Part shown: positions 19,651-42,706 of the stretch, piece by piece
How positions within the stretch are numbered: position 1 is the first letter of the stretch
Layout of the letters: every line of letters begins with the position of its first letter
Assembly (NCBI GenBank): GCA_903928915.1
Contig: CAIYSL010000092.1
Span: forward strand, 1-53,133
From: an uncultured Syntrophobacterales bacterium
Lineage (GTDB): Bacteria; Desulfobacterota; Syntrophia; Syntrophales; UBA5619
Reading direction: 5' to 3'
DNA length: 53,133 nucleotides
Made by a program: the position numbers and the translations under genes
Notes under the pieces: generated by a model
Told to the model about the DNA's origin: nothing
The model's input: the letters and a program-made list of their open reading frames with translations, nothing else
Database searches by the model: none

Positions 19651-21186
19651 CTATCTTCTCCCGGACGGCATCTTCAGACCCCGTTCGGGCCGCGAGAAGC
19701 CGTGGCACCAGGAGCAGTCGTACTTCTTGTCTTTCACGTGTTTGTCGTGTAGCTTCGCATAGCCCGGCCTCTCTTCCCGTCCGTGGCACTGCCTGCAGGT
19801 CGTCTCCGGGGTCCCTTTCATCCGGTACCCCATGCCCTTCAGGTTCATCTGCGCCGCTGTCGCGGTGTGGCACTGGTTGCAGGTGAGGGCGTTGCCCTTC
19901 GGCATAACCTCGTGCGTTATCAGCTGGTAGGTGTCCGTCTCCACGTCGCTGTACGGAGTCGTATCGGAATACCCCATGTTTCGCAGACCGGCCTTTACCG
20001 CGGCCCCGTAATCGCCGGTCGCAAAATAGACCGCCGTGTCGAGCGCGACGAGCACGCCGGGACCGCCGGCCAGCGGCTGGAGTGCCTTCTTGTACTTGAA
20101 AGGATAGAGCTTGCTGGCCCGGTCGTTGATGCCGCCCTCGGGGCGCGATGTCCCGTACGCCCCGGACGCCGGGTCCAGCCATACCGTTTCCTTCAGGCTG
20201 TAGTTCCAGCTGAGGCCGTTCCAGAAGGCATACGCCGGTTTCAGGTTGCCGCCCCGCGTGATGGCCGGCTCCCAGCGGCCCAGTGCCGTATTCCATTCGG
20301 GGGTGAGCCAGTCGCGGTACACCTCCGTCGTTTCGGCAGCGGCTGTGTCCGCCGCGTTCCTGGCGTAGGTCGGGATGTGGCAGGTCTGGCAGGCCACGCG
20401 GCCGACGTGGCGGTCGATATTCTCGTTCCCATGGCCCTTCGCCGTCGCCTTGCCGGGATGGCAGGTCTGGGTGCTGCAGTTCATCTTTACGTCGAGATCG
20501 GTCTGCCGCAGATCGGAGCCGCGGCCGGCGATCCGGTGGTTTTGCGTCGTGTGGCACTGCTGGCAGCTGAGGTTGGCACCCGTCGTGGCCATGTGCACGT
20601 CGAAGGACCTGTCCGCCGTCGCGCCCTGCGCGAGCGCCATGTCGCCCCGCTTGTTGTTGTCGCCACCCCCGCCTTTGGCATGGCACTGCAGGCAGTTCGA
20701 CCGCTCCGGTTCATGCACGGTGCGGACGGCCTGATCCATCGTCACGGTCATGCTCGCCGTGTCGGGCACGAACACGCCGTTGACCTTTTTCCGTTTGTAC
20801 TGTTTTTGATGGCAGACGAGACAATCGACATTCTCAAGCTGGGCAACCGTGGCGGTTGCCTCGGGCTTCGCCCCCAGCCCCACGTGGCAGGAGCCGCAGG
20901 CGTTCCAGTTGCCCTGGATGGAGATGCAGTAGCTGTTGAGCGCCGTGCTCAGCTTCCCCTGGACCTCAGGCCCGTTGACCGTGTAGGGTGTAGGCCCCTG
21001 CCACTGGTAGTGGCTGGAACCGTGAACCTCGCGCGCCTCCGTCTGATGGCAGGCCAGACAGGTCTGGGGACCCTGCCACGACAGCCCGGCGTGCGGGTCG
21101 GCCGCGGATAGCTCCCCGGCAATCGCCAGAAGCACCGCGCCACCCAGGGCAACGTGCAGAACCGCTCCGATAAACCGTTTCTTCAT
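19651..21186 (-). CDS. Secreted multiheme c-type cytochrome (9 CxxCH plus one CX4CH)
   Basis: A 511-residue exported cytochrome. The start at 21186 follows AGGAGGG and gives a signal peptide (MKKRFIGAVLHVALGGAVLL, ending near SAADPHAG). Canonical heme sites are CLACH, CGSCH, CLVCH, CLQCH, CQQCH, CQTCH, CNQCH, CRQCH and CSWCH, nine in all, plus NCSTQTCH with four residues between the cysteines, which can bind a tenth heme in some cytochromes. A ~150-residue heme-free stretch separates CQTCH from CNQCH and may form a substrate or partner domain. The family is related to periplasmic multiheme cytochromes of metal- and sulfur-reducing bacteria, but I do not recognise a specific enzyme. It is monocistronic with its own terminator. 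Confidence 0.88.
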   Translation of the reverse strand: MKKRFIGAVLHVALGGAVLLAIAGELSAADPHAGLSWQGPQTCLACHQTEAREVHGSSHYQWQGPTPYTVNGPEVQGKLSTALNSYCISIQGNWNACGSCHVGLGAKPEATATVAQLENVDCLVCHQKQYKRKKVNGVFVPDTASMTVTMDQAVRTVHEPERSNCLQCHAKGGGGDNNKRGDMALAQGATADRSFDVHMATTGANLSCQQCHTTQNHRIAGRGSDLRQTDLDVKMNCSTQTCHPGKATAKGHGNENIDRHVGRVACQTCHIPTYARNAADTAAAETTEVYRDWLTPEWNTALGRWEPAITRGGNLKPAYAFWNGLSWNYSLKETVWLDPASGAYGTSRPEGGINDRASKLYPFKYKKALQPLAGGPGVLVALDTAVYFATGDYGAAVKAGLRNMGYSDTTPYSDVETDTYQLITHEVMPKGNALTCNQCHTATAAQMNLKGMGYRMKGTPETTCRQCHGREERPGYAKLHDKHVKDKKYDCSWCHGFSRPERGLKMPSGRR

Positions 21187-21819
21187 AAAAACCCTCCTTT
21201 GTGTACAGGGAAGCATGCATCCCCACTAGTGATGCGGCGCCAGGCCGACCGCCGGTCTTCACGACGATTCCCGGGGCAAACCCGCGGCCTGTTCTGCCCG
21301 GTGGGGGCCATGCGGTCCCTATAAGCAGTATCCATACCAAAACGTATCTCGCTGATATACCTTGGTTATGAATACCGGAGTGGGCTGACGCGAAGGAATT
21401 TTCTGCCGGCAAGCGGAAGCGGGCCCTTCCGCCTGCAGCCGGCCCTCCTCTCAGAACAATTTGATTTCATGCAGGAACTTCATGCCTCTCGGCGGTGAAT
21501 GGTTTTTCCTCCATACGCGTCAGGAAATTGATGCTGAGGCAGGGGTTTTCGAAACCCGCGGGGAGAAATATTCCTTGATCGCAGCCCTGTTTTGGTATAG
21601 GAGGTCGAGAGTTCATTCCCTCTCACCAGGGGTCTCTCAGAAGCGCCCTGCGCTCACCAGAACCGGTAGAGTATCCGCCCTATTATGGATGTACCTCTCC
21701 GGTCGCGCGTATCGCTGGCCGGGTCGCGCGGACCGGTGGAGACGTCGCGGCAGGACCGGAGGGCGGGCACGGAGAAACGCAGGGGCGCACGTTTCATTAC
21801 ACTTGAGGAGAAAGCAGCG
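21187..21819. other. Intergenic region between the cytochrome and the catabolic operon
   Basis: About 630 bp between divergent genes. It contains a possible sigma54 site for the cytochrome (21324-21339) and the ribosome site GAGGAG of the aldehyde dehydrogenase gene. I could not find a convincing plus-strand promoter. The open frames at 21461-21819 have no recognisable protein features. Confidence 0.5.
21324..21339 (-). promoter_or_regulatory. Possible sigma54 promoter of the cytochrome gene
   Basis: On the minus strand TGGTATGGATACTGCT has the invariant GG and GC of a -24/-12 promoter at the correct spacing, with mismatches to TGGCAC-N5-TTGCW at three positions. It would start RNA about 130 bases before the cytochrome ATG. 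Weak evidence. Confidence 0.3.
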
Positions 21820-23343
21820 ATGAGTCGACCAAAGCGATTGCGGTATTGTGTGGACAACGAGTGGCGGGAGTCGAAGACGACCAAACCCTACATGCCCGTG
21901 ACGGATTCGAGCACCGGTGCGGTCATCGCCGAGGCGCCCTGCTGCACCGTGGAAGAGGTGAACAGCGCCGTGGCGGCGGCAAAGGCCGCCTTTCCCGGCT
22001 GGTCCTCCCGGCCTGTCCAGCAGCGGATCGAGGTGATGTTCCACTTCCGCGCCCTGCTGGAGAAGCACCTGGACGAACTGACGCTGTCCGTCGCCACCGA
22101 GCTCGGCAAGAACCTCGACGAGGCCCGCGGGGACATCCTCAAGGCGATGGAGGTGGTGGAGGTAGCCTGCGGGGCGCCCATCCTGATGCAGGGCGATGCC
22201 CTGATGAACGTCTCCACCGGCCATGACACGGTCATGTACCGGGAACCGGTCGGCGTGTTCGCCGGGATCGTTCCCTTCAACTTCCCGGCCATGATCCCCT
22301 TCGGCTGGATGATCCCGCTCTGCATCGCCATGGGCAACACCTTCGTCCTGAAGTCGTCAAGCCTCACCCCGATGACGTCAATGCGAGTCCTGGAGCTGCT
22401 GATCGAGGCGGGCCTCCCGAAAGGGGTCGTCAACCTGGTCACCTGCAGCCGCGTCGAGGCGGAGTTGCTGCTGAAGCACCCCGATGTTCGGGGGATCTCC
22501 TACGTGGGCTCCACCTCGGTCGGCCTCCACATCTATTCGACGGCGGCGGCCCACGGCAAGCGCGTTCAGGCGCTCTGCGAGGCGAAGAACCACGCGCTGG
22601 TGCTCCGCGACGCCGCACTCGAACGGTCCGCCATCGGAATCATCAACTCCACCTTCGGCTGCGCCGGGATGCGCTGCATGGCCCTGCCGGCGCTCTGCGT
22701 CGAGGAGGCCTGCGCCGACGAGTTCATCTCTTATCTGGTAAAATACGCGAAGGCGCGGCGGGTGGGCTGCGCCTACGATCCGAAGACCGAGCTGGGGCCG
22801 GTGGTCTCGGCGGAACACAAGCAGTCGGTCATCGACTGGATCACCAAGGGGGTCGAGGAGGGGGCCGAACTGATCCTCGACGGCCGCACCGTCGTGGTTC
22901 CCGGGTTCGAGAACGGCCATTTCGTGGGTCCCACGATCTTCGACCACGTGCAGCCCGGGATGTGCATCGGCGACTGCGAGATCTTCGGGCCCGTCACCAG
23001 CATCAAGCGAGTCAAGGATTTCGAGGCGGGGCTGGCCGTCATGAACGACAACCGGTTCGCCAATGGTTCGTGCATCTTCACCCAGAACGGCAACTACGCC
23101 CGGGAGTTCGTCCGCAGGACCCACGGCGGGATGGTGGGGGTGAACGTGGGGATCCCCGTGCCCGTCGCCTACTTCCCCTTCGCCGGGCACAAGGACTCTT
23201 TCTTCGGTGACCTCCACGTGATGGGCAGGGACGGGGTGGCCTTCTACACCGAGGCGAAGTGTGTCACCTCCCGCTGGTTCAGCGAGGAGGACAAGCAGGA
23301 GAAGTGCGTCAGCACCTGGGATGGAACGATCACCCGGAAATAG
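21820..23343 (+). CDS. Aldehyde dehydrogenase, CoA-acylating methylmalonate-semialdehyde dehydrogenase type
   Basis: A 507-residue ALDH-superfamily enzyme closest in pattern to MmsA, the dehydrogenase that converts (methyl)malonate semialdehyde to propionyl- or acetyl-CoA. The signature regions are GVFAGIVPFNFPAMIPFGWM, the nucleophile region FGCAGMRCMALP with Cys286, and the C-terminal FPFAGHKDSFFGDLHVMGRD and KCVTSRWF, which are MmsA hallmarks. MmsA proper has QRCMA at the nucleophile; here it is MRCMA. The ATG at 21820 follows GAGGAG. It is the first gene of a six-gene plus-strand cluster, and could be the last enzymatic step of that pathway (aldehyde to acyl-CoA). The exact aldehyde is unknown. 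Confidence 0.87.
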   Translation: MSRPKRLRYCVDNEWRESKTTKPYMPVTDSSTGAVIAEAPCCTVEEVNSAVAAAKAAFPGWSSRPVQQRIEVMFHFRALLEKHLDELTLSVATELGKNLDEARGDILKAMEVVEVACGAPILMQGDALMNVSTGHDTVMYREPVGVFAGIVPFNFPAMIPFGWMIPLCIAMGNTFVLKSSSLTPMTSMRVLELLIEAGLPKGVVNLVTCSRVEAELLLKHPDVRGISYVGSTSVGLHIYSTAAAHGKRVQALCEAKNHALVLRDAALERSAIGIINSTFGCAGMRCMALPALCVEEACADEFISYLVKYAKARRVGCAYDPKTELGPVVSAEHKQSVIDWITKGVEEGAELILDGRTVVVPGFENGHFVGPTIFDHVQPGMCIGDCEIFGPVTSIKRVKDFEAGLAVMNDNRFANGSCIFTQNGNYAREFVRRTHGGMVGVNVGIPVPVAYFPFAGHKDSFFGDLHVMGRDGVAFYTEAKCVTSRWFSEEDKQEKCVSTWDGTITRK

Positions 23344-23484
23344 GGTTCCGCATCCGGCCCCTGCGGCCCGCGGCGGAAATCCCGGCGATTGCGGCGCAAG
23401 CGGTTTGCGGTCGTTCGGCAACGGTTAACCATACAGTCCCACAGCTACTCCGCATGAATGCGGTATTACCAGAGGAGGTTTGAC

Positions 23485-24708
23485 ATGATCGAACAGTTCT
23501 TGAAGAGGGCAGACGCACGGAGATGTTCCCTATCGCAGCACGAACTCGAACGAAGGTGGAAGGGGCTGCGCGAACGGATGGCGGCAAAGAAGATCGATTA
23601 CCTGGTGGTCCAGAGCCAGAACAGGGGCGTGGGCGGATACTTCCGCTATTTCACCGACCTGCCCGGCGGCAATTATCCCAACGCCGCGGTCTTCCCGCTC
23701 GACGGCGACATGGCGGTCATCTCGCACGGCCCGGCCTCGCCCGCCCCGCCGGCCAACCCGCCCGACTGGGCGCTCCGCGAAGGCAAGGTGAAGTTCAACA
23801 CCCCTGCCTTTCCCAACGTGTGGTGGGAAGAGGGGTGGGATGCGGAGAAGGCGGTGGCGTACATGCTGAAGAAGAAACCCCGGAAGGTGGGTTTCGTCGG
23901 GATGGGAAACATGTCCGCGGCGCTGTATGCGAACATCATGAAGGGGCTGCCCGGGGTCGAGTTCGTCAACGCCACCGACCTGGTCGATGAGCTGAGGATG
24001 GTCAAGAGCGAGGAAGAGCTCGCGCTCCACCGCGAAGCCGCCTACATGCACGAGCAGAGCTACGAGGTGGCCCTCGAGTCGATTTGCCCCGGCAGGACCA
24101 TCGAAGAGGTCATACTGGACATCCGCATCGCCCAGATGGAGGCGGGAAGCGAGGAGCAGCAGGTGGCCATCGCCTTCGGCCAGCCGAAGGAACCCCACCA
24201 CCCCGGGCAGATGAGCTGGGGCAACACCGTCATCCGGCGGAAACTGCGGGAAGGCGACATCGTCAACCTGCTGGTGGAGTCGAGCATGGCGGGCGGCTAC
24301 TGGTATGACATGCGGCGGTTCTTCTCGATCGGCCCTGTCCCCGCGGCCTACCGGGAAGCCTGGGAGATCGCCAGGGAGGCGCGGGCCATCATGGCGAAAA
24401 ACTGCCTGCCCGGCCTGCTGCCGGGGGTCGCCGTGAAGGCCTGCGACAAGTTCCTGAAGAGCAAGGGGTGCCCGCCGGAAAACCGGGTTTCTGGACACGG
24501 CCAGGGTCTGGACCTGGTGGAGCGGCCGGTCTTCTTGAAGGACGAACTCTGCAAGCTCGAGACGGGAATGATCGTCTGCCTCCATCCCACGGCCAAGACG
24601 AAGAACGCCGCCGTGTGTCTGTCGGACACCTACGTCGTGACCGAATCGGGGGCGGTTCCGCTGTACCAGAGCCTCTTCGACAAAGACGAAATCGCCGTCG
24701 TCGGTTAA
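23485..24708 (+). CDS. M24-family (creatinase/prolidase fold) protein with an incomplete metal site
   Basis: A 407-residue two-domain 'pita-bread' protein: a creatinase-type N-terminal domain (from LERRWKGLRERMAAKKIDYL) and an M24 C-terminal domain. In M24 metallopeptidases two Asp, one His and two Glu bind metals. Here the aligned positions read Val264, Asp275 (YWYDMRRFF), His338 (SGHGQG), His367 (IVCLHPT) and Ser380 (CLSDTYVV), so three of five ligands are replaced. This resembles creatinase, which uses the fold without metal, more than prolidase. The ATG at 23485 follows GAGGAGG. It lies in the catabolic cluster and may hydrolyse a C-N or similar bond of the substrate; that is inference. 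Confidence 0.85.
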   Translation: MIEQFLKRADARRCSLSQHELERRWKGLRERMAAKKIDYLVVQSQNRGVGGYFRYFTDLPGGNYPNAAVFPLDGDMAVISHGPASPAPPANPPDWALREGKVKFNTPAFPNVWWEEGWDAEKAVAYMLKKKPRKVGFVGMGNMSAALYANIMKGLPGVEFVNATDLVDELRMVKSEEELALHREAAYMHEQSYEVALESICPGRTIEEVILDIRIAQMEAGSEEQQVAIAFGQPKEPHHPGQMSWGNTVIRRKLREGDIVNLLVESSMAGGYWYDMRRFFSIGPVPAAYREAWEIAREARAIMAKNCLPGLLPGVAVKACDKFLKSKGCPPENRVSGHGQGLDLVERPVFLKDELCKLETGMIVCLHPTAKTKNAAVCLSDTYVVTESGAVPLYQSLFDKDEIAVVG

Positions 24709-24760
24709 CGGCGGCGCTCCGCAGGGGCACCGACCGGGCGCCGCTCCTTCCGGGAGGGGT

Positions 24761-25741
24761 ATGACGAAAATCGTTGTGGCGTGCGGCTTCGGGCTTGTCG
24801 AGCAAGCCCGGGCCGCGCTGGAGGAGGTCGCCCAGGTCACCGTACTGACCGACGACTCGGAAGCGGCACTGCGGACGGCGCTGCGGGATGCGAACACCCT
24901 CCTGGTAAGCATCCGGCCCGTCATAACCAGAAGCTTCATCGAGTCGGCAGGACAGCTGCGGCACATCGCCCGGCTGGGTGTCGGGGTGGACACCGTCGAC
25001 CTCGCGGCGGCGACGGAGCGCGGGATCTTCGTCACGAACGTTCCCGAGGTCACCTCCGACTCCGTCGCCGAATTCACCATGACGCTGCTGTTGGCGCTCG
25101 CCAAGAACATCTGCCGCGGCGACCGCGCGGTCAAGGAGGGCCGCTGGCCCGAGCGGCTCCAGCTGATCCGCGAGAACATCGAACTGAACGGAAAGACGCA
25201 CGGCATCGTCGGCCTGGGGAACATCGGACGCCGGGTGGCGGTCCGCTGCCGTGCCTTCGGCATGCGGGTCCTCTACACCAAGCGCAACCGGGACCCGGAG
25301 GCCGAGCGAACGCTGGGGGTGGAGTATGCCCCCCTCGACACCCTGCTCAAGGAATCCGACAGCATCAGCCTCCACCTCCCCCTGAGCGAAGAAACGCGCA
25401 GCCTGATAGACCGGCCCCGTCTGGAGGCGATGAAGCCCTCGGCGTTCCTGATCAACCAGGCCAGGGGCGAGGTGGTGGACGGGGAGGCCCTCGTCTGGGC
25501 CCTCAGAGAGGGCAAGATCGGCGGGTATGCCACGGACGTGTACAGCCAGGAGCCTCCCGATCCGCACGACGAGCTGTTTCAGTTCAAGAACGTGGTCGCC
25601 GCACCCCACCTCGGCGGGGGAACCCGCGAGGCCCGTCTGCGCGCCTGCATGACCGTCGTTTCCGAGGTGCTCAGGATCATCCGCGGGGAGATGCCGAACA
25701 ACCTGGTGAACAGGGAGGTGCGGGAACGAACGGCCCGTTGA
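24761..25741 (+). CDS. D-isomer-specific 2-hydroxyacid dehydrogenase
   Basis: A 326-residue NAD-dependent dehydrogenase of the D-2-hydroxyacid family (phosphoglycerate dehydrogenase relatives). The NAD turn is GIVGLGNIGRRVAVR, and the catalytic Arg, Glu and His are in NQARGEVVDG, DVYSQEPPDP and APHLGGGTREA. The length fits simple glycerate/2-hydroxyacid dehydrogenases without a regulatory ACT domain. GGGAGGGG immediately precedes the ATG. Within the cluster it would interconvert a 2-hydroxy- and a 2-oxo-acid upstream of the ThDP enzyme. 3-Phosphoglycerate dehydrogenase itself (SerA) is less likely, given the short length and catabolic neighbours. Confidence 0.9.
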   Translation: MTKIVVACGFGLVEQARAALEEVAQVTVLTDDSEAALRTALRDANTLLVSIRPVITRSFIESAGQLRHIARLGVGVDTVDLAAATERGIFVTNVPEVTSDSVAEFTMTLLLALAKNICRGDRAVKEGRWPERLQLIRENIELNGKTHGIVGLGNIGRRVAVRCRAFGMRVLYTKRNRDPEAERTLGVEYAPLDTLLKESDSISLHLPLSEETRSLIDRPRLEAMKPSAFLINQARGEVVDGEALVWALREGKIGGYATDVYSQEPPDPHDELFQFKNVVAAPHLGGGTREARLRACMTVVSEVLRIIRGEMPNNLVNREVRERTAR

Positions 25742-25823
25742 ACCACGGCGGGCACGATCCCGCAGAAGCCGAAGACCATTCTTATCCCGGGCGGTGATGC
25801 CCATCTTTGAAAGGAGATGTGCC

Positions 25824-26882
25824 ATGAAGGGAGAGGCCAGGAGCGGACGGGGTGTGGTACGATGGGGGTTCGGGGGCGGTCGGGGGCGTCACGGAGCCGC
25901 AGCGCAGCGGGCTACGGCGATCACCTCGATCTTCGCCCTTGCGCTGCTCCTGGTCGGCATTGCGGCCGCACCGCTTCACGCGCAGGCCTACCCGAACAAA
26001 CCGATCCGCTTTGTCTTCCCCTTTCCGCCGGGAGGACCGACCGACATCCTCGGCCGTCTGATCGGCCAGAAGCTTGCCGACCGGCTGGGCCAGCCGGTGG
26101 TCCCGGAGAACAAGCCCGGCGCCGGGGCCAACATCGGGCTCGAGATCGGGGCCAAGGCCAAGCCCGACGGCTACACCATCACCCTTGCCTCGCCCTCACT
26201 TTCGATCAGCCCGACCCTGTACAAGAAGCTGAACTATGATTCGGTCAAGGATTTTGCGCCGATCGCCCTGGTCGCCGAGATCCCCAACGTCCTGCTCGTC
26301 CCCTCCTCGTCTCCGCTCAAGAGCCTCCGGGAGTTGATCGAATACGCCAAGGCCAACCCCGGCAAACTCAACTTCGGCTCGGGCGGCATCGGAACCTCGA
26401 ACCATCTCGCCAGCGAGCTGTTGAAAAACCTCGCCCAGATCAACATCGTCCACGTGCCGTACAAGGGGTCCAACCAGGCGATGATCGGCATGATGGGCGG
26501 CGAGGTGGGCATGGTAGTGGTCGGCATCCCGCCGTCGCAGGCGCAGATCAAGGCCGGCAAGGTCCGGGCCCTCGCGGTCCTCAGCGAGCAGCGTCTGCCG
26601 GCCTTTCCGGCCATTCCGACGGCGAAGGAGGCCGGTGTCGAGAACTTCGAAGTGACCACCTGGTACGGCGTTCTCGCGCCTGCCGGGACGCCCCGCGACG
26701 TCGTCACCCGCCTGAACGCCGAATTGACCAAGATCGTTGCAACGGCCGATACCCGGGAGAAGATGCAGGCCGCCGGGTTCGAGCCGATGTCGAGCACCCC
26801 GGAAAAGTTTGCAGAATTCGTCAAAACCGAGATCGTACGCTGGGGAAAAGTCATCAGGGACGCCAACATAAGCGTCGAATAG
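25824..26882 (+). CDS. Bug/TctC-family periplasmic solute receptor
   Basis: A 352-residue extracytoplasmic receptor of the tripartite tricarboxylate transporter family, which binds carboxylates in a Venus-flytrap cleft. After an Arg/Gly-rich n-region comes the signal core IFALALLLVGIAAAPLHAQA, and mature residues begin YPNKPIRFVFPFPPGGPTDI, the classic Bug start. GKLNFGSGGIGTSNHLASEL and HVPYKGSNQAMIGMMGGEV are family blocks. AAAGGAGAT precedes the chosen ATG, so the longer frame from 25794 is not used. No tctA/tctB genes lie in this operon; the only membrane subunits in the window are at 39-41 kb on the other strand, with their own receptor, so this receptor may borrow them. Confidence 0.92.
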   Translation: MKGEARSGRGVVRWGFGGGRGRHGAAAQRATAITSIFALALLLVGIAAAPLHAQAYPNKPIRFVFPFPPGGPTDILGRLIGQKLADRLGQPVVPENKPGAGANIGLEIGAKAKPDGYTITLASPSLSISPTLYKKLNYDSVKDFAPIALVAEIPNVLLVPSSSPLKSLRELIEYAKANPGKLNFGSGGIGTSNHLASELLKNLAQINIVHVPYKGSNQAMIGMMGGEVGMVVVGIPPSQAQIKAGKVRALAVLSEQRLPAFPAIPTAKEAGVENFEVTTWYGVLAPAGTPRDVVTRLNAELTKIVATADTREKMQAAGFEPMSSTPEKFAEFVKTEIVRWGKVIRDANISVE

Positions 26883-26903
26883 CCAGAATCGGAGGTTGTG
26901 ATC

Positions 26904-28589
26904 GTGAGTGAAAGGCAAACGGGGGCGCGTTTCTTGGCCGAAACCTTCAAGGGGTACGGGGTGACCCACGTCTTTTTCGTTGAGGCGATCCTGAGAAAAA
27001 CCATGGTAGAGTTGGAGGCGCTGGGGATACGCCGGATCCTGACCCATTCCGAGAAGGCCGCCGCGTACATGGCGGACGGCTACGCCCGGGCCACGCGAAA
27101 GCCGGGGATCTGCATGGCCCAGTCGGTCGGTGCGGCAAACCTGGCCTCGGGGCTCCAGGACCCTTACCTGGGCTCATCGCCCGTCATCGCCTTCACCGGC
27201 AAGAAGCCGCCGCTCTGGCAGAACCGCAACTCCTACCAGGAGGTCGACCACAATCCGCTGTTCGCGGCAGTGACCAAGTACAACGTCACCGTGGACACAG
27301 CCGACCAGCTCCCCCTCTACGTCCGGCAGGCGTTTCGGGAGGCCACATCGGGCCGGCCCCGGCCGGTTCACCTGGATATCGCCGGCGGGTACATGGGGGC
27401 GGGCATCGAATCCGCCGCGGGGAATTTTCCCCTGCTCGTCGAGGAGCGGTTCACCGGGATGCCGGCGTTCAGGCCTGAACCGGAGGCAGACGCCCTGGCG
27501 CAGGCGGTGGAGCTCCTCCGGACGGCGGAGCGCCCCGTGATCGTCGCCGGGGGGGGGGCGCGCTCCTCGGGGGCGGGGCCGGAGATCGCCGCCCTGGCCG
27601 AGAAGCTCTCGATCCCGGTGGCCACGTCGCTCGACGGCAAGGACACCCTCGCCGATACCCACCCCCTGAAGGTGGGAATCGTCGGTTCCTATTCCCGCTG
27701 GTGCGCCAACCGGCTCGTCGCCGAGGCGGACCTGGTGCTGTACATCGGCAGCGGCACCGGAGACCAGGTGACCAACGACTGGACGATCCCGCGGATGGGG
27801 ACGGCGGTCATCCAGATCGACATCGACCCGTCCGAACTGGGGAGGAGCTACCCCAACCGGGTCTCGCTAATGGGAGACGCCCAAGCCACCCTCCGGCGGA
27901 TGCTCGGGCTGATCGGCGAGAAACGGGAGAATCCTGCCTGGGTCGGGCGCTGCCGGCAGCTCGTGACCGACTGGGAGAAGGAGATGGAGCCGCTCTGCCG
28001 TTCCGAGGCCGTACCGATCCGCACGGAGCGGCTCTGTCGCGAGATCGGCGACGCCTTTCCCGCCGACGGGCTCCTGGTGGCCGACACGGGGTGGGCCGGG
28101 ATCTGGACGGGCGCGCTGGTCAATTACCGCACGCAGGGACAGGGCTACATCCGCGCGGCGGGGTCCCTCGGCTGGGCATTTCCGGCGGCGCTGGGCGCCA
28201 AATGCGGCGCCCCCGAGCGACCGGTGGTCTGCTTCACCGGCGACGGCGGGTTCTACTACCACCTGACCGAGCTGGAGACGGCCAGCCGTTGCGGGATCAA
28301 CGTGGTGACCGTGGTCAACAACAACCAGCACCTCCGGCAGTGCGTCGACGGAATTCATGCGGCATACGGCAGCCGGCCGGGAAACCCCGACGAGCAGTGC
28401 AAATTCACGAAGACCGATTTCGCCCGGCTCGCCGAGGAGATGGGCTGCGTCGGGATCCGGGTGGAGAAGCCCGGCGAGATCGCCGCGGCGTTCAAAGAGG
28501 CCCTGTCGCTGAACAGGCCGGTGGTGGTCGACGTGGTCACCGATCCCGCCTGCCGGGCCCCCGGCCCCTGGACGCCGCCCGTGAAGTGA
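26904..28589 (+). CDS. Thiamine-diphosphate-dependent enzyme (acetolactate synthase/decarboxylase family)
   Basis: A 561-residue ThDP enzyme with the usual three-domain order (PYR, middle, PP). Glu50 in LTHSEKAAAYMADGYARATR is the conserved cofactor-activating glutamate. The ThDP/Mg motif is CFTGDGGFYYHLTELETA followed by VVTVVNNNQ. The GTG at 26904 has GGAGG eight bases upstream; the GTG at 26898 sits too close. The sequence is not the sulfoacetaldehyde acetyltransferase or short phosphonopyruvate decarboxylase type. It is best called acetolactate synthase-like; in this cluster a 2-oxoacid decarboxylase or carboligase role between the hydroxyacid dehydrogenase and the aldehyde dehydrogenase is a reasonable inference. 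Confidence 0.88.
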   Translation: MSERQTGARFLAETFKGYGVTHVFFVEAILRKTMVELEALGIRRILTHSEKAAAYMADGYARATRKPGICMAQSVGAANLASGLQDPYLGSSPVIAFTGKKPPLWQNRNSYQEVDHNPLFAAVTKYNVTVDTADQLPLYVRQAFREATSGRPRPVHLDIAGGYMGAGIESAAGNFPLLVEERFTGMPAFRPEPEADALAQAVELLRTAERPVIVAGGGARSSGAGPEIAALAEKLSIPVATSLDGKDTLADTHPLKVGIVGSYSRWCANRLVAEADLVLYIGSGTGDQVTNDWTIPRMGTAVIQIDIDPSELGRSYPNRVSLMGDAQATLRRMLGLIGEKRENPAWVGRCRQLVTDWEKEMEPLCRSEAVPIRTERLCREIGDAFPADGLLVADTGWAGIWTGALVNYRTQGQGYIRAAGSLGWAFPAALGAKCGAPERPVVCFTGDGGFYYHLTELETASRCGINVVTVVNNNQHLRQCVDGIHAAYGSRPGNPDEQCKFTKTDFARLAEEMGCVGIRVEKPGEIAAAFKEALSLNRPVVVDVVTDPACRAPGPWTPPVK

Positions 28590-28676
28590 GGGCCGGCGAT
28601 CGGCGCAACAATCATCCCTGCCGGATGCGGATACTACGATCAGCACAGGGTGGAGAGAGCGAGAAAGGGGAAGGGA

Positions 28677-29123
28677 ATGAAGACGAGAAGGGTCGTGACC
28701 GGGCACAATAAGGACGGCCGCAGCGTGGTCAAATGGGATTCCGCACTGGAGGGCACGCCGGGCCGGCCGCGCTTTGAAAAGGTGGAGCTCTGGGCAACCG
28801 ACACCCTGCCGGCTCGTCTCACCGAGGACGATCCGACCACCTGGGAGATGGGGACCAGCTTGGCGAACGGATCGGTGTTCCGGTTCTGCCGGTACGAGCC
28901 GGGGGTGGCCGAGCGCTGGCATCGGACCGATTCGATCGATTACGGCATCGTCATCTCCGGGGAGATGTGGATGCAGCTCGACGAAGGAGAGGTGCACCTC
29001 AAGGCCGGCGACGTGGTCATCCAGCGGGGTACCATCCACAACTGGGTCAACCGGGGGAGCGAACCCTGCGTGATGGCCTTCATCCTGATCGCCACGGAGG
29101 GGGCCGCCTCCACGGGCTGGTAG
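28677..29123 (+). CDS. Cupin-domain protein
   Basis: A 148-residue single-cupin protein. The cupin core has motif 1 with PGVAERWHRTDSIDYGIVISGE and motif 2 with LKAGDVVIQRGTIHNWVNRG, retaining the His/Glu-type metal ligands partly (WHRTDS, HNW). The ATG at 28677 follows GGGGAAGGG. It ends the six-gene cluster. Small cupins of this kind occur in catabolic operons as isomerases, dioxygenase-like enzymes or ligand sensors; I cannot tell which. Two hairpins follow the stop by 50-105 bases. Confidence 0.85.
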   Translation: MKTRRVVTGHNKDGRSVVKWDSALEGTPGRPRFEKVELWATDTLPARLTEDDPTTWEMGTSLANGSVFRFCRYEPGVAERWHRTDSIDYGIVISGEMWMQLDEGEVHLKAGDVVIQRGTIHNWVNRGSEPCVMAFILIATEGAASTGW

Positions 29124-30128: not shown

Positions 30129-32849
30129 ATGAACGCTACCAGAAGAAGCACCGCAGCAGCCCTGTGGATGATCAGCCTGCTGCTCCTGACCGCGCTCGGC
30201 GTCACCGGCTGCGGCGGCGGAGGGGGCAGCAGCAGCAGCGAGCCCCCCACGATAACGGTGACGGCCTCCCCGACCGTCGTACAGGGACAGGCCGCAGCGA
30301 TCACCGTCACCGGGAGGTACGCCCAGGACCCGGCCGTTCCCCTCACCTACACGGTGAACGGCACACCGCGGAGCCTCGTCCTCAACGCCGCGACAGGGGC
30401 CTGCACCTGGACACCGGCCTATGACGAGATCGGGACCCACACGCTGAAATTCGCCGTGAGCACCGGATACCAGTCGGCGAGCCAGACCGTCCAGATCAAG
30501 GTGACGCCCAACACCGCGGTAGACAACACCGCTGCGCTGAAGGGGGGAACGCTCGACCCGCTGGCCATCCCCAAATACGTGACCCCGCTGGTCATCCCGC
30601 CGGTCATGAAGAACACCGGCGCGGCGGACAACTACGCCATTGCCGTGCGTCAGTTCAAGCAGCAGATCCTCCCCGGGGGGATCTGGAACACCGTCACCGG
30701 CCGCCTGGACGGTTTCCTGCCCACTACCGTCTGGAGTTACGGGCCGAATACCGACCCGGCGCCCGACTCGACGGCCCTGGGGGGAGGGGCAGGCATCGCC
30801 CCGGCGCCCAACTCCCAGTTCAACTACCCCGCCTATACGATCGAGACGCGGGCCGACACCCAGGTGAAGGTCCGCTGGATCAACGACCTCGTCGACGCCA
30901 GCGGCAACTACCTGCCCCATCTGCTCACGATCGACCAGACGCTGCACTGGGCGAACCCGCCCCGGGAGTGCGCCGAAGGGCCGGCGCGGTCCGACTGCAT
31001 GGGGATGAACCCCGCCCCCTACACCGGGCCGGTGCCGATCGTCACCCACGTCCACGGCGCCCATGTGGCGGGCCACAGCGACGGCTACCCCGAGGCGTGG
31101 TGGCTGCCGGCAGCGCGGAACATCCCGGCCGGGTACGCCCGGTCGGGGAACCTGTTTGACGATTCGACCGGCACCAACCCGGGCAACCTGGGGTATGCCG
31201 ATTTCCTGTACCGCAACGACCAGCCGGCGACGACCATCTGGTACCACGACCACGCCCTGGGAATGACCCGCAGCAACGTCTACGCCGGTCCCGCCGGGTT
31301 CTGGCTGATCCGCGGCGATCATACCCCGCCGGCCGGCGGCGGTCCCGTGGTCCGGGATGCGGTCGACGACTCCGGCACGGCAGCGCCAAACGACGGGAAG
31401 CTTCCCGGACCGCCGCCGGTGGCGGGCAATTCGGTCCTGGCGCTCAACATCCCCGGCGATCCGGTGCGCAACGCCGTCCGGGAGATCCCGATCGTCGTCC
31501 AGGACCGCTCCTTCAACGCCGACGGGTCGCTCTTCTACCCGGATAAGCGGGCCTTCTTCGAGGGTCTTGAACCGGGCGGCCTGAAGATCAAGTTCAGCCC
31601 CGATTCCGACATCGCCCCGTACTGGAACCCCGAGGCCTTCTTTAACGTCATGGTGGTCAACGGGGTGAGCTGGCCGAAGCTCGACGTGGCGCGGGCCAAG
31701 TACCGGTTCCGGCTGCTCAACGGCTGCAACTCCCGGTTCCTGAACCTGGCCCTGTTCGTCGTCAACCCCGCCACCGGCCGGATCGACAAGACCCGGGAGG
31801 TCCCCTTCTACATGATCGGGACCGAGCAGGGCGCCCTGCCCAAGGTGGTGAAGATCCGTACCGGGTTCGCCACCCAGCTCCCGGGCAACGGCACGTCGCC
31901 GGCGGACGTGGCGGCGCCCGACCCCGACCAGGCCCTGCTCCTGGCCCTGGCGGAGCGGGCCGACGTGATCGTCGATTTTTCGGAGCTCGCCGACGGGACG
32001 ATCGTGCGGATGGTCAACACGGCGCCCGACTCGCCCTTCGGCGGGTTCAACGGCGAGGCCGGGGAAGACGATATGGCTGACCCGCTCACCACCGGGCAGG
32101 TGATGCAGTTCATCGTCAACAACAACCTGACCGGCGCCAGCCCCACCGATCCCGGCGGGGCTACCCCGGCCACGGCGGTGGCGCGGCTGGTCCTCAACCC
32201 CGAGGCAACGCTCGGCGCGGCCTCCCGCCTGCGGCAGGTCTCGCTCAACGAGGAGATGTCGATCCAGGTCTGCGTAATCACGGACAATGACGGATCGACG
32301 ATCACGCAGCTCACCTCCGTCGCCCCGGCGGCGAACGAGGCCGACATCCCCCGCTTCCTGGCCGCCTGCGAGGCAGCGGGCGGCGAGCCCTTCGGCCCGA
32401 AGGCGGCCATGCTGGGGACGGTCAACCTCACCGATCCCGACTCGCCCGTCGGCATCCCGCTGAAATGGACCGACATGAGCGGCGCGAGCACCCCCGTCAC
32501 CGTGACCCTGACCAGCGGGGCGACCCGGCAGATCAACGTCACGGAGAACCCCCGGGTGGGCGACGTGGAGGAGTGGGACATCTATAACTTCACCGCGGAC
32601 GCCCACCCGATCCACCTGCACCTGGTGCGGTTCCAGGTGCTCAACCGGAGGCAGTTCGACGGGACCGCGAGCCCCCACGGCAGCCTCCAGCCCTGGGAGA
32701 CGGGGTATAAAGACACCTTCATCTCCTACCCGGGCGAGGTGGCGCGGATCAGGGCGAAGTTCACCATCCCGGGGCTGTACGTGTGGCACTGCCATATCGT
32801 CGAGCACGAGGACAACGAGATGATGCGGCCCTACGTCGTCTCGCCCTGA
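30129..32849 (+). CDS. Multicopper oxidase, exported lipoprotein with Ig-like domain
   Basis: A 906-residue laccase/CotA-type oxidase. The N-terminus ends in lipobox VTGC, followed by a Gly/Ser linker and an Ig-like domain at about residues 40-125, then the cupredoxin domains. Copper sites are HVHGAHVAGHSDG, IWYHDHALGM, AHPIHLHLVRF and the C-terminal HCHIVEHEDNEMM, so type 1 and trinuclear ligands are complete, with Met as the likely axial ligand. These enzymes couple oxidation of metals (Mn, Fe, Cu) or phenols to reduction of oxygen; OmpB/OmpC-type relatives occur in Geobacter. AAGGAGAATGGGA precedes the ATG. The membrane anchor and position suggest a cell-surface or periplasmic role. Confidence 0.93.
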   Translation: MNATRRSTAAALWMISLLLLTALGVTGCGGGGGSSSSEPPTITVTASPTVVQGQAAAITVTGRYAQDPAVPLTYTVNGTPRSLVLNAATGACTWTPAYDEIGTHTLKFAVSTGYQSASQTVQIKVTPNTAVDNTAALKGGTLDPLAIPKYVTPLVIPPVMKNTGAADNYAIAVRQFKQQILPGGIWNTVTGRLDGFLPTTVWSYGPNTDPAPDSTALGGGAGIAPAPNSQFNYPAYTIETRADTQVKVRWINDLVDASGNYLPHLLTIDQTLHWANPPRECAEGPARSDCMGMNPAPYTGPVPIVTHVHGAHVAGHSDGYPEAWWLPAARNIPAGYARSGNLFDDSTGTNPGNLGYADFLYRNDQPATTIWYHDHALGMTRSNVYAGPAGFWLIRGDHTPPAGGGPVVRDAVDDSGTAAPNDGKLPGPPPVAGNSVLALNIPGDPVRNAVREIPIVVQDRSFNADGSLFYPDKRAFFEGLEPGGLKIKFSPDSDIAPYWNPEAFFNVMVVNGVSWPKLDVARAKYRFRLLNGCNSRFLNLALFVVNPATGRIDKTREVPFYMIGTEQGALPKVVKIRTGFATQLPGNGTSPADVAAPDPDQALLLALAERADVIVDFSELADGTIVRMVNTAPDSPFGGFNGEAGEDDMADPLTTGQVMQFIVNNNLTGASPTDPGGATPATAVARLVLNPEATLGAASRLRQVSLNEEMSIQVCVITDNDGSTITQLTSVAPAANEADIPRFLAACEAAGGEPFGPKAAMLGTVNLTDPDSPVGIPLKWTDMSGASTPVTVTLTSGATRQINVTENPRVGDVEEWDIYNFTADAHPIHLHLVRFQVLNRRQFDGTASPHGSLQPWETGYKDTFISYPGEVARIRAKFTIPGLYVWHCHIVEHEDNEMMRPYVVSP

Positions 32850-37839: not shown

Positions 37840-39201
37840 ATGGAAAAGCTGCACCGGTCGGAAGGCGACATCAACATCTCTCCGCGCCGCAAACGCTGGC
37901 AGGACGAGAATCTCGACGCCGAGACCCGGGCCCTCCTCGCCGAGGACGAGAAATACTTCCTCCGCCAGTCCCTCTCCACCCCCTGCCTGAACGGGCTTGG
38001 CGCCTGCGACGGGATCTGGGTCGAGGACCTCCAGGGCCGGCGGTACATGGACTTCCACGGGAACAACGTCCACCAGGTGGGGTTCGCCAACCCGGCGGTG
38101 ATCGCCGCGATCAAGGAACAGCTCGACGGCGGGCTCTCCTTCTGTACGCGGCGGTACACCAACCGCGTGGCAGTGGACCTGGCGAAGAAGCTCGCCCAGA
38201 TCGCGCCGGGGGACCTCAGCAAGGTCCTGTTGTGCCCCGGCGGGGCGGAGGCGATCGGCATGGCGCTCAAGCTCGCCCGGATCGCCACGGGCCGCCACAA
38301 GACGATCTCCATGTGGGACTCCTTCCACGGGGCGTCGCTCGACGCGATCTCGGTCGGCGGCGAGGCGGTCTTCCGCCAGGACATCGGGCCGCTCCTGCCC
38401 GGCACGGAGCACGTGCCGCCCCCGGACGAATACCACTGCCTCTACCAGTGCCGCGGCCGCGGCGGCTGCGACATGATGTGCGCCCGGTACGTGGAGTACG
38501 TCCTGGAGAAGGAAGGCGACGTGGCGGCGGTGATCGCCGAGCCGATCCGGAGCACACCCTACATCCCGAAGCCCGAATACTGGCAGATCATCCGCAAGGC
38601 CTGCGACCGTCACGGGGCGCTCTTGATCTTCGACGAGATCCCCCATGCCCTCGGCAGGACCGGCCGAATGTTCACCTGTGAGAACTTCGCCGTCGTCCCC
38701 GACATGCTGGTGATCGGCAAGGGGCTGGGCGGCGGCATCCTCCCGCTGGCCGCCCTGATCGCCCGCGAGGGGCTCGACGTGGCGGCAGACCGCGCCCTGG
38801 GCCACTACACCCACGAGAAGAGCCCGGTCGCCTGCGCCGCGGCCCTGGCCACGATCCGGTACGTGGAGGAGAACAACCTCGCCGCACACGCCCGCGAGCT
38901 CGGTCAATACGCACTCGCCAGGATGGCGGCGATGATGGAGCGCCATCCCCTGATCGGCGACGTACGCGGCCTGGGGCTGTTTCTGGGCATCGAGCTGGTG
39001 AAGGACCGGGCAACGGGCGAGCGGGCGAGCGAGGAGGCGGAGGCGGTGATGTACGCGGCCCTCAGCCGCGGGCTGAGCTTCAAGCTCACGATGGGAAACA
39101 TCCTCACCCTGACCCCGGCGCTGACGATCACCCGCGCCGAGCTGGACCGGGCACTGGACATCGTCGAGGCCTGCATCGGGGAGGTCGAACAGGACGCGTG
39201 A
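37840..39201 (+). CDS. Class III aminotransferase-fold PLP enzyme, PbfA-like paralogue 2
   Basis: A 453-residue cytoplasmic PLP enzyme. Lys294 in DMLVIGKGLGGGILPL is the Schiff-base lysine and LLIFDEIPHALGRTGRMF holds the cofactor aspartate. The start EGDINISPRRKRWQDENLDA, then YFLRQSLSTPCLNGL, MDFHGNNVHQVGFANP and the Cys-rich CLYQCRGRGGCDMMC, look to me like the subgroup of PbfA, which splits (R)-1-hydroxy-2-aminoethylphosphonate into phosphonoacetaldehyde and ammonia and is usually found with phnW. The size is right for PbfA. A generic aminotransferase is the alternative. It is divergent from its paralogue, with tctABC beyond its 3' end. PhnW is present 34 kb away. Confidence 0.82.
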   Translation: MEKLHRSEGDINISPRRKRWQDENLDAETRALLAEDEKYFLRQSLSTPCLNGLGACDGIWVEDLQGRRYMDFHGNNVHQVGFANPAVIAAIKEQLDGGLSFCTRRYTNRVAVDLAKKLAQIAPGDLSKVLLCPGGAEAIGMALKLARIATGRHKTISMWDSFHGASLDAISVGGEAVFRQDIGPLLPGTEHVPPPDEYHCLYQCRGRGGCDMMCARYVEYVLEKEGDVAAVIAEPIRSTPYIPKPEYWQIIRKACDRHGALLIFDEIPHALGRTGRMFTCENFAVVPDMLVIGKGLGGGILPLAALIAREGLDVAADRALGHYTHEKSPVACAAALATIRYVEENNLAAHARELGQYALARMAAMMERHPLIGDVRGLGLFLGIELVKDRATGERASEEAEAVMYAALSRGLSFKLTMGNILTLTPALTITRAELDRALDIVEACIGEVEQDA

Positions 39202-39351
39202 GGGGCGGCACGCGGCAACGGCCCGCGCCGGACCCCGTCCCCCCCGGCGTTGGCGTTCCTTCATCCTGCCGGCGCTTTTCCCCTCGCATTTCCTGACCGC
39301 TGCCGGGACGCGAGGGCCGATCGTGCAGCGCTGCGCCGCCCGGCCGGCCCC

Positions 39352-40839
39352 CTACAGCATCTTTTCCCGCTTCCTGCTGAAAAAGGGGATGAAATTACTC
39401 AGCATCAGCACCAGGGCGATCCCCAGACAGACTGCCGAGAGCGGGCGGGTGAAGAAGATCGCGAAGCTCCCCTGGGAGAGGAGCAGCGCCTGTCGCATGG
39501 CCACCTCCAAGAGGGGCCCCAGGATGAAGGCCAGGCACAGGGGCGCCGGGTCGAACCCGAACTTGCGCATCAGGTAACCCAGGATCCCGAAGGCCAGCAT
39601 CAGCCCCAGGTCGATCGTCTTGAGGTTGATCGCGTAGACGCCGATGATGCAGAAGAGCATGATCAGCGGGAAGATGATCCGGTAGGGGACCTTCAGCACC
39701 TTTACCCACATCCCGATCAGGGGCAGGTTCAGGATCAGGAGCATCACGTTGCCCACGTACATCGAGGCGACGATGCCCCAGAAGACGTCGGGGTGCTCCG
39801 AGAAAAGCATCGGACCGGGGCGGACCCCGTGGATCATCAGCGCCGCGAACAGGAGAGACACCGTCCCGTTCATGGGGATCCCCAGCGACAGTAGGGGGAT
39901 GAGGGCGGAACCCGCGGCAGCGTTGTTGGCCGACTCCGGCCCCGCCACACCGGCGATCTCGCCCGTTCCGAACCGCTCAGGGTGCTTGGAGACCTTCTTC
40001 TCGACGATGTAGGACATGAAGCTGGCGATGATCCCCCCGCCGCCCGGGATCATCCCCAGGAAGAACCCCAGGAGGGAGCCGCGGGTGATGGCGCCGGCGC
40101 TCTGCCGCCACTCCTCGCGGTTCGGCAGCAGGTTCGTGATCTCCACCTTCGAGACGGTCTTGACGGCGCTCTTCTCCAGTTCCGAGAACACCTCGGCGAT
40201 CCCGAAGAGCCCCATGATCAGCGGGACGATGCCAACCCCATCGGCCAGCTCGAGCAGGTCGAAGGTGAAGCGGTTCGTGCCGTTTACCAGGTCGATCCCC
40301 ACCCAGGAGAGGAGCATGCCCAGCAGCGCCGACATCAGGGCCTTGAGCGCCGACTTGGTGGAGAGGTAGGTGGCCAGCACCAGCCCCATCAGGACAAGGG
40401 AAAAGAATTCCGGCGGGCCGAACTTAAGGGCCGCCGCCGCCAGGGGGACTGCCAGGAGCATCAGCCCCACGACGCTGAAGGTGCCGGCGATGAAGGAGCC
40501 GATGGCGCAGATGCCCAGCGCGGGCCCCGCCTTCCCCTTCAGGGCCATCTGGTAGCCGTCCACACAGGTCATGACCGAGGCCGCCTCGCCCGGGATGCTC
40601 ACGAGGATCGAGGTGGTCGACCCCCCGTACATGGAGCCGTAGTAGATCCCCGCCAGCATGATGATCGACCCCACGGGGGTGATCTGCAGGCTGATGGGCA
40701 GCAGGATGGCCATCGCGCCTGCCGGGCCGATCCCGGGCAGTACGCCCATCAGCGTCCCCAGCAGGACCCCCAGGAAACAGAACAGGAGGTTGTCAGGGGT
40801 CAGCGCGACCTGAAAGCCGTAGAGGATGTCCGTCCACAT
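39352..40839 (-). CDS. tctA: Tripartite tricarboxylate transporter large membrane subunit TctA
   Basis: A 495-residue inner-membrane protein with about 11-12 segments, the channel subunit of a carboxylate importer driven by the ion gradient. Diagnostic motifs are GVLPGIGPAGAMAILLP near residue 35, YYGSMYGGSTTSILVSIPGE, FFLGMIPGGGGIIASFMSY and EIAGVAGPESANNAAAGSALIPLLSLGIP. It is the third gene of the tctC-tctB-tctA operon, separated from tctB by an 86-bp spacer with a very strong hairpin. The cargo is set by the receptor TctC. Another Bug receptor encoded at 25.8 kb has no membrane partner of its own and may also dock here. Confidence 0.94.
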   Translation of the reverse strand: MWTDILYGFQVALTPDNLLFCFLGVLLGTLMGVLPGIGPAGAMAILLPISLQITPVGSIIMLAGIYYGSMYGGSTTSILVSIPGEAASVMTCVDGYQMALKGKAGPALGICAIGSFIAGTFSVVGLMLLAVPLAAAALKFGPPEFFSLVLMGLVLATYLSTKSALKALMSALLGMLLSWVGIDLVNGTNRFTFDLLELADGVGIVPLIMGLFGIAEVFSELEKSAVKTVSKVEITNLLPNREEWRQSAGAITRGSLLGFFLGMIPGGGGIIASFMSYIVEKKVSKHPERFGTGEIAGVAGPESANNAAAGSALIPLLSLGIPMNGTVSLLFAALMIHGVRPGPMLFSEHPDVFWGIVASMYVGNVMLLILNLPLIGMWVKVLKVPYRIIFPLIMLFCIIGVYAINLKTIDLGLMLAFGILGYLMRKFGFDPAPLCLAFILGPLLEVAMRQALLLSQGSFAIFFTRPLSAVCLGIALVLMLSNFIPFFSRKREKML

Positions 40840-40870
40840 AGCGCCACCGTCTCTCGCCGAACAGATGAAC

Positions 40871-40907
40871 AGGGAGGCCCGCCCCCGGCCGGGGGCGGGC
40901 CATCCCT
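40871..40907 (-). repeat. Strong hairpin between tctB and tctA
   Basis: Bases 40876-40901 form a perfect 26-nt palindrome (GGCCCGCCCCCGG and its complement) extended by AGGGA/TCCCT across a bulged A. No U-run follows on the minus strand, so it is unlikely to be an intrinsic terminator; a role in uncoupling tctB and tctA mRNA levels is plausible. Confidence 0.6.
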
Positions 40908-40925
40908 CCTTGGGTATTCAACGGC

Positions 40926-41396
40926 TCAGCCGAGCCGGAGCAGTCCCTGGGGCAGGTTGACCTGCAACAGGGTAGAAAAGAGCAGGTAGCTGAGCACGGA
41001 GGTCGCGGCCGACCAGGCCACGGCGCCGATCCAGCTTCCCTTTTCGTAGATCTGGAACAGCAGGAACAAGAACGCAAAGGTGCACAGGACGTACCCCACC
41101 GGGGTCATCAGGAAGATGTAGGCAAAATTCGCCGCGACGACCACCAGGATCCGCCAGCCGTGGGTCCTCTCTGCGCTGCCGGCGGCCTGCCGCCGGCCCA
41201 GGGTTGCCCGGAAGAACAGGGCAATCGCCAAAAGCCCCAGCAGGGTCGCCGTTCCCAGGAACATGAACCCGGAGCCCGGCTCCCTCGGCGTGCCGACGCC
41301 CAGGTCCAAGGCCCCGTGAATCACGTACCCGGAGAAGATCATCAGGATCAGGGAGATCCAGAGATCGCTTCCCGTGTACACCGACCAATGCTTCAT
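40926..41396 (-). CDS. tctB: Tripartite tricarboxylate transporter small membrane subunit TctB
   Basis: A 156-residue protein with four predicted membrane helices (near residues 13, 45, 82 and 120), the small subunit of the Tct transporter. The pattern of short hydrophobic protein between tctC and tctA, and GYVIHGALDLGVGTPREPGS after the first helix, matches the TctB family, which is poorly conserved in sequence. Its assignment rests largely on position. The ATG at 41396 is 39 bp after the tctC stop. Confidence 0.88.
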   Translation of the reverse strand: MKHWSVYTGSDLWISLILMIFSGYVIHGALDLGVGTPREPGSGFMFLGTATLLGLLAIALFFRATLGRRQAAGSAERTHGWRILVVVAANFAYIFLMTPVGYVLCTFAFLFLLFQIYEKGSWIGAVAWSAATSVLSYLLFSTLLQVNLPQGLLRLG

Positions 41397-41435
41397 CGTG
41401 AAATCTCTCCCTTACGCCTGCCCGCCGGGGTCGGG

Positions 41436-42535: not shown

Positions 42536-42564
42536 TTGATAGCCGGGCACCGCCCCTTTGTCAA
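42536..42564 (-). promoter_or_regulatory. Sigma70 promoter of tctCBA
   Basis: Minus-strand TTGACA (42564-42559), 17 bp, TATCAA (42541-42536). The -35 lies inside the inverted repeat TTTGTCAAGACAAA (42557-42570), a likely regulator site. Confidence 0.65.
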
Positions 42565-42575
42565 GACAAATCCCC

Positions 42576-42604
42576 TTGACATCCCGCAGTGCTTTCCCTA
42601 TCTT
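42576..42604 (+). promoter_or_regulatory. Sigma70 promoter of the molybdopterin oxidoreductase operon
   Basis: TTGACA (42576-42581), 17 bp, TATCTT (42599-42604). Only 11 bp separate its -35 from the -35 of the divergent tctC promoter, and the TTTGTCAAGACAAA repeat sits between, so one regulator could control both. Confidence 0.7.
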
Positions 42605-42706
42605 GACCGGACCAAAAAATTCAGAGTATTCGCCATCACGCGCGGAACAGAGGCCGGCACGGCACCGGGCCGCCCGTTCCCCGGACCACGGAAAGGGGAA
42701 AGCACC

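Follow-up and report, generated by a model that had tools for sequence, protein, structure and literature searches.

We propose, with a probability of roughly 0.45, that six adjacent genes of an uncultured Syntrophobacterales bacterium (GenBank assembly GCA_903928915.1) form a carboxylate-catabolic operon built from recurrent sub-modules for uptake, 2-hydroxyacid/2-oxoacid interconversion, decarboxylation and acyl-CoA formation. The genes occupy positions 21820-29123 of contig CAIYSL010000092.1 (53,133 nt, referred to in full as the window) and encode an aldehyde dehydrogenase (ALDH), an M24-fold protein, a D-2-hydroxyacid dehydrogenase (2HDH), a TctC/Bug solute receptor, a thiamine diphosphate (ThDP)-dependent enzyme and a small cupin (Table 1). 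Their coordinates, order and families, as first listed in an initial annotation made from the sequence, were confirmed by open reading frames (ORFs) on the plus strand and by Pfam and NCBIfam matches. The operon combines known enzyme folds in a new way and includes several uncharacterised clades; it is not a system of a categorically new kind, and no description of the gene set was found in open-access papers.

In the proposed pathway, the Bug receptor would capture an organic acid for a tripartite tricarboxylate transporter (TTT) permease encoded elsewhere, and the M24-fold protein would probably cleave the substrate at a C-N, C-O or C-S bond, by hydrolysis or elimination, as creatinase, ectoine hydrolase and the dimethylsulfoniopropionate (DMSP) lyase DddP do with the same fold. 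The 2HDH would interconvert a 2-hydroxy acid and the corresponding 2-oxo acid, the ThDP enzyme would decarboxylate the latter, and the ALDH, which resembles methylmalonate-semialdehyde dehydrogenase (MMSDH), would turn the resulting (semi)aldehyde into an acyl-CoA, with the cupin as an accessory of the 2HDH and ThDP steps. We infer each of these reactions from family membership, and the order of steps and the substrate are to be read in the same conditional way.

Operon layout and recurrent sub-units

All six proteins score far over the Pfam gathering scores (Aldedh, 437 bits; Peptidase_M24, 74 bits, together with Creatinase_N; 2-Hacid_dh_C, 203 bits; TctC, 277.8 bits; three TPP_enzyme domains, 84-133 bits; Cupin_2, 45 bits). 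The genes are separated, from 5' to 3', by gaps of 114, 52, 82, 15 and 87 nt; the ALDH gene, which has a GAGGAG-type ribosome site, starts at position 21820, the cupin stop codon ends at position 29123, and GC content is even across the region (0.62-0.69). Upstream, at a distance of ~600 nt, lies a divergent, multihaem cytochrome-like ORF with many CxxCH motifs (19651-21216, opposite strand), and the next plus-strand gene, multicopper-oxidase-like, starts ~1 kb downstream (30129-32849). Given these flanks the six genes stand alone, and a single transcription unit is plausible; sigma-70 and terminator scans gave no signal proving one.

Table 1. Genes of the six-gene operon, with positions in the window and supporting matches.
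Feature	Coordinates	Strand	Basis
CoA-acylating-type aldehyde dehydrogenase, MMSDH subfamily TIGR01722, Lys108 variant clade	21820..23343	+	TIGR01722, Aldedh
M24 (pita-bread) fold protein, remodelled metal-ligand positions	23458..24708	+	Pfam M24 + Creatinase_N, predicted model
D-isomer-specific 2-hydroxyacid dehydrogenase (2HDH), glyoxylate reductase/phosphoglycerate dehydrogenase-like	24761..25741	+	2-Hacid_dh, 2-Hacid_dh_C
TctC/Bug periplasmic solute receptor	25824..26882	+	PF03401
ThDP-dependent enzyme, catabolic clade resembling acetohydroxyacid synthase	26898..28589	+	Three TPP_enzyme domains
Small single-domain cupin, 'RRVVTG' family (c18)	28677..29123	+	Cupin_2

The host genome (G000; 4.34 Mb in 141 contigs, with the operon on contig C92) has a contamination estimate of 3.6%. 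It was compared with a sample of ~900 genomes, and counts given for the same phylum refer to a sample of 395 genomes; the collections cover contigs of 3 kb and above and leave out many species. Genes at comparison loci were called by a simple greedy ORF script, and some counts are approximate. Sub-units of the operon recur in this sample. A 2HDH, a cupin and TTT genes occur together on contig C33 of the host genome, ThDP, Bug and cupin genes in Betaproteobacteria, M24 and ALDH genes in a Rhodoplanes metagenome-assembled genome (MAG; locus L082), and 2HDH, cupin, Bug and M24 genes stand consecutively at locus L096. Judged from these comparisons, the operon reads as a mosaic of smaller recurrent units.

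That cupin, 2HDH and TTT uptake go together, with apparently interchangeable downstream enzymes, is best supported by the operon on C33 (L206:4594-12744), which encodes an acyl-CoA ligase, an HMGL-like enzyme of the isopropylmalate/homocitrate-synthase family, a cupin, a 2HDH, TctC, TctB and TctA. Its cupin and 2HDH are 82% and 59% identical to those of the operon under study, whereas the HMGL-like enzyme and ligase stand in place of the ThDP enzyme and ALDH. The HMGL-like enzyme has a 73% homologue in a further genus of the phylum, where a 72% identical cupin is its neighbour. The C33 operon adjoins a molybdopterin oxidoreductase. At E <= 1e-20 the cupin was found in only 3 of the 395 genomes of the phylum, the host included. 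By inspection the cupin of the six-gene operon has one His in motif 1 (H82) and H121 in motif 2, compared with the HxH and second-motif His of metal-binding cupin dioxygenases, and it is homologous to cupins and bicupins encoded beside relatives of the ThDP enzyme.

The ThDP enzyme, the M24-fold protein and the receptor

The ThDP enzyme shares its three-domain architecture and catalytic Glu (E52) with the acetohydroxyacid synthase (AHAS) and glyoxylate carboligase class, and its best NCBIfam models carry the name acetolactate synthase. The initial annotation had named a biosynthetic acetolactate synthase as the identity that would undo its pathway, and we consider this identity very improbable. 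The protein scores under every curated cut-off shown, including 332.3 bits against 538.35 for the AHAS large-subunit model TIGR00118. Its GSGTGDQ aligns to the GxRFxxR motif of AHAS (GTRFTER and GVRFDDR in the two AHAS of this genome), and both arginines, which presumably belong to the second-substrate site, are absent. No regulatory-subunit gene is adjacent, and the genome encodes AHAS elsewhere: an ilvB frame on C18, followed by frames that read by eye as IlvN and IlvC (an ilvBNC-like cluster), and a second AHAS on C15, both large subunits passing the TIGR00118 cut-off. On these sequence grounds the ThDP enzyme is not a biosynthetic AHAS.

Relatives in its clade are 49-64% identical and are found in loci linked to Bug receptors or tripartite ATP-independent periplasmic (TRAP) transporters. 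Genomes of groundwater Betaproteobacteria each carry several of them, and they also occur in 10 of the 395 genomes of the phylum (host included). Within 3.5 kb of 21 copies, a Bug receptor gene was present at 17, an SMP-30 lactonase-type gene at six and a c18 cupin at four. Neighbours within the phylum are variable; in one genus they comprise TRAP transporters, short-chain dehydrogenases/reductases and 3-hydroxyacyl-CoA-dehydrogenase-like genes. In the genus of the host (L195:5916-19901), a relative is clustered with 2HDH and methylaspartate-mutase E/S/GlmL-type genes, a methylisocitrate-lyase-family protein, GarR-like dehydrogenases and fumarate-reductase-like genes, which suggests a B12-dependent carbon-skeleton rearrangement pathway. 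Loci combining the ThDP enzyme with acetate kinase and TRAP genes had raised the idea of a sulfoacetaldehyde acetyltransferase or other organosulfonate pathway; this was rejected at 185 bits against 676 for TIGR03457.

The M24-fold protein has the pita-bread fold and Creatinase_N domain of its family. Relatives were found in genome contigs using a four-row alignment, a single-sequence scan having returned none, and an AlphaFold model from 74 sequences reached a pLDDT of 89.8. Prolidase, ectoine hydrolase and creatinase are its top fold matches over the whole length (Z 34-36), which gives it the fold of small-molecule hydrolases such as the latter two. Aligned to prolidase, however, the metal-ligand positions are L272, D284, H347, H376 and S389 instead of the canonical D, D, H, E and E, and among the 74 sequences they are L/M in 65, E/D in 66, H in 72, H in 71 and mostly C (55). 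The canonical dinuclear metal site of M24 metallopeptidases is thus absent, and the protein may be metal-free, as creatinase is, or hold a new mononuclear site.

This remodelled ligand set makes an ordinary metallopeptidase unlikely. That the protein is a Xaa-Pro dipeptidase feeding in peptide-derived amino acids is hardly credible, even with prolidases as top fold matches, given the change to L, D/E, H, H and S/C across the relatives and a neighbourhood of organic-acid transport and dehydrogenase genes. Creatinase (1chm, 7yto) and ectoine hydrolase DoeA/EutD (6twk) are closer parallels, as M24-family small-molecule hydrolases likewise found in catabolic clusters, although identity is only ~19-20%, the neighbouring genes differ, and the protein reaches just 37-40 bits with ectoine hydrolase models whose cut-offs are 575-613. 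DddP (4b28, 4s00; Z 29) is also a non-peptidase M24 fold with a carboxylate substrate; DddP enzymes are metalloenzymes (PMC4108388), whereas the ligand set is altered here. A DMSP pathway of DddP, cupin and DddC-like ALDH found no support, given this altered set and the changed ALDH arginine described below.

At 39 of 73 M24 loci a same-strand 2HDH gene was present within 3.5 kb, and 2HDHs make up 43 of 486 genes near M24 genes compared with 0 of 229 at distances over 6 kb (Fisher p 6e-8). The pairing spans Clostridium, Eubacterium, Hyphomicrobiales and Desulfobacterota. In Clostridium (L042:4020-12008) and Eubacterium ramulus (L048:7399-17349), the M24 variant is grouped with CitF, CitE-like, two 2HDH and malic-enzyme-like genes, in E. 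ramulus also with TRAP, a set that may represent a second coherent pathway. A second M24 variant of the host genome (L012:9716-10933 on C61; 60% identical) is solitary, between genes unrelated to uptake. Tentatively, and at somewhat less than even odds, we suggest that the M24 clade (74 aligned sequences, from Bacillota to Proteobacteria) is a new non-peptidase enzyme class whose members, their site remodelled to D/E-H-H(-C), split a common natural conjugate to release a 2-hydroxy- or 2-oxo-acid, and that the operon represents one of several pathways centred on this class.

No TctA or TctB permease genes were found within 21820-29123, and the nearest TctA (39352-40839) belongs to another gene group. 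That second TTT region (37840-42437) holds this TctA and a TctC (41436-42437) beside class-III-aminotransferase-like ORFs and adjoins a molybdopterin-oxidoreductase-like ORF (42536-44791). TTT genes are greatly expanded in the host genome (63 TctC and 41 TctA matches in 4.3 Mb) and include many permease genes, a contrast to Bordetella, in which Bugs are mostly orphans. Like the receptor of the six-gene operon, most Bug/TctC receptors lack permease genes in their operons (PMC5994714); the same paper gives 434 TTT receptors for Rhodoplanes sp. Z2-YC6860, only nine of them in full TTT operons. Large receptor sets are thus already known in other phyla; the host here appears to be a Desulfobacterota-type MAG and not a beta- or alpha-proteobacterium.

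Weighing the proposed route

The earlier-proposed chain from hydroxyacid through oxoacid and aldehyde to acyl-CoA is the simplest reading of the operon, but several observations weigh against it. The full six-gene set was found neither in 79 M24 loci nor, within the sample, beside the nearest relatives of the ThDP enzyme and the cupin. The 2HDH has the 2-Hacid_dh domains and the Arg-Glu-His catalytic residues (R235, E264, H283), kept in its 59% paralogue too, and scores under the cut-offs of its nearest NCBIfam models; in a tree it falls outside the main M24-linked 2HDH clade. As, in addition, the six closest M24 relatives (59-68%) lie near Bug or TctA genes without nearby 2HDH, ThDP or ALDH genes, the M24-2HDH link holds for this operon at the superfamily level only. 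Enrichment of Bug genes near M24 genes is not significant (p 0.22), and with so many of them in the comparison genomes their closeness counts for little. The 2HDH also carries a Lys-Arg pair (YTKR), with no acidic residue near the second-strand end of the nucleotide-binding fold, and thus could use NADP(H) and work reductively.

The ALDH adds a further point of this kind. It passes TIGR01722 (538.6 bits, cut-off 448.5) and shares with MMSDHs (IolA/MmsA/DddC) the catalytic Cys286 with Arg285 before it. Lys108, however, stands where all five solved MMSDHs compared have the xRG(I/L) arginine, which we take to bind the carboxylate of malonate semialdehyde, and the C-terminal tail (STWDGT) is distinct. 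The same Lys and tail occur in relatives from the Rhodoplanes MAG (61% identical, two genes downstream of the M24 gene at L082) and from a groundwater betaproteobacterium (68%). The operon ALDH therefore falls, by these shared residues, in a distinct clade and probably acts on an aldehyde other than (methyl)malonate semialdehyde. The 68% relative adjoins LutB/LutC-like lactate-utilisation genes (L171:1-3839).

The Lys108 variant, a 2HDH that may prefer NADP(H) and the range of conceivable M24 chemistry leave room for a different order of steps. The exact chain is putative, as the 2HDH lies in a different clade from the main M24-linked ones and the ALDH lacks the MMSDH arginine. Overall, the initial interpretation held in part: the families, the catabolic, carboxylate-uptake context, the separation of the ThDP enzyme from AHAS and the M24 fold found support, whereas co-conservation of the six genes did not, since the neighbourhood search gave sub-pairs only.

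The same operon could instead handle a carboxylate by other chemistry, with the 2HDH as a reductive, NADPH-dependent redox or detoxifying valve, the ThDP enzyme making an acyl-phosphate, acyl-CoA or acyloin and not a free aldehyde, and the ALDH taking a semialdehyde from the M24 or cupin step. YTKR and Lys108 both point this way, the wider ThDP class includes ligases, oxidases and acetyltransferases, and homologues of the ThDP enzyme lie near other ThDP genes and, at one locus, acetate kinase (L188, L191). Even so, an ALDH, a 2HDH, a ThDP enzyme and an organic-acid receptor in one operon fit an oxidative route most simply, and the missing AHAS arginines argue against acetolactate-type carboligation; we regard this alternative as unlikely, though it deserves serious weight. 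It is rather doubtful that there is no single pathway and that independently acquired genes in a TTT-rich genome share a promoter region while serving several organic acids. In favour of this reading, the six-gene set is unique among the genomes sampled, the M24 paralogue on C61 is solitary, and the closest relatives are separate: those of the M24 protein in Betaproteobacteria and Desulfobulbaceae, of the ThDP enzyme in the same phylum and Betaproteobacteria, and of the ALDH in the groundwater betaproteobacterium. Against such a patchwork stand the tight same-strand spacing, the renewed pairing of cupin and 2HDH in the C33 operon, and the cupin's company of 2HDH, Bug and M24 genes at L096 and of ThDP and Bug genes at several loci.

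The proposed carboxylate-catabolic operon unites recurrent clades (the M24 variant, the AHAS-like ThDP enzyme, the RRVVTG cupin and the Lys-type MMSDH) beside a receptor that can be screened for its ligand. Once found, that ligand could assign functions to families across several phyla, and it would help to account for the dozens of TTT receptors present in some environmental bacteria.

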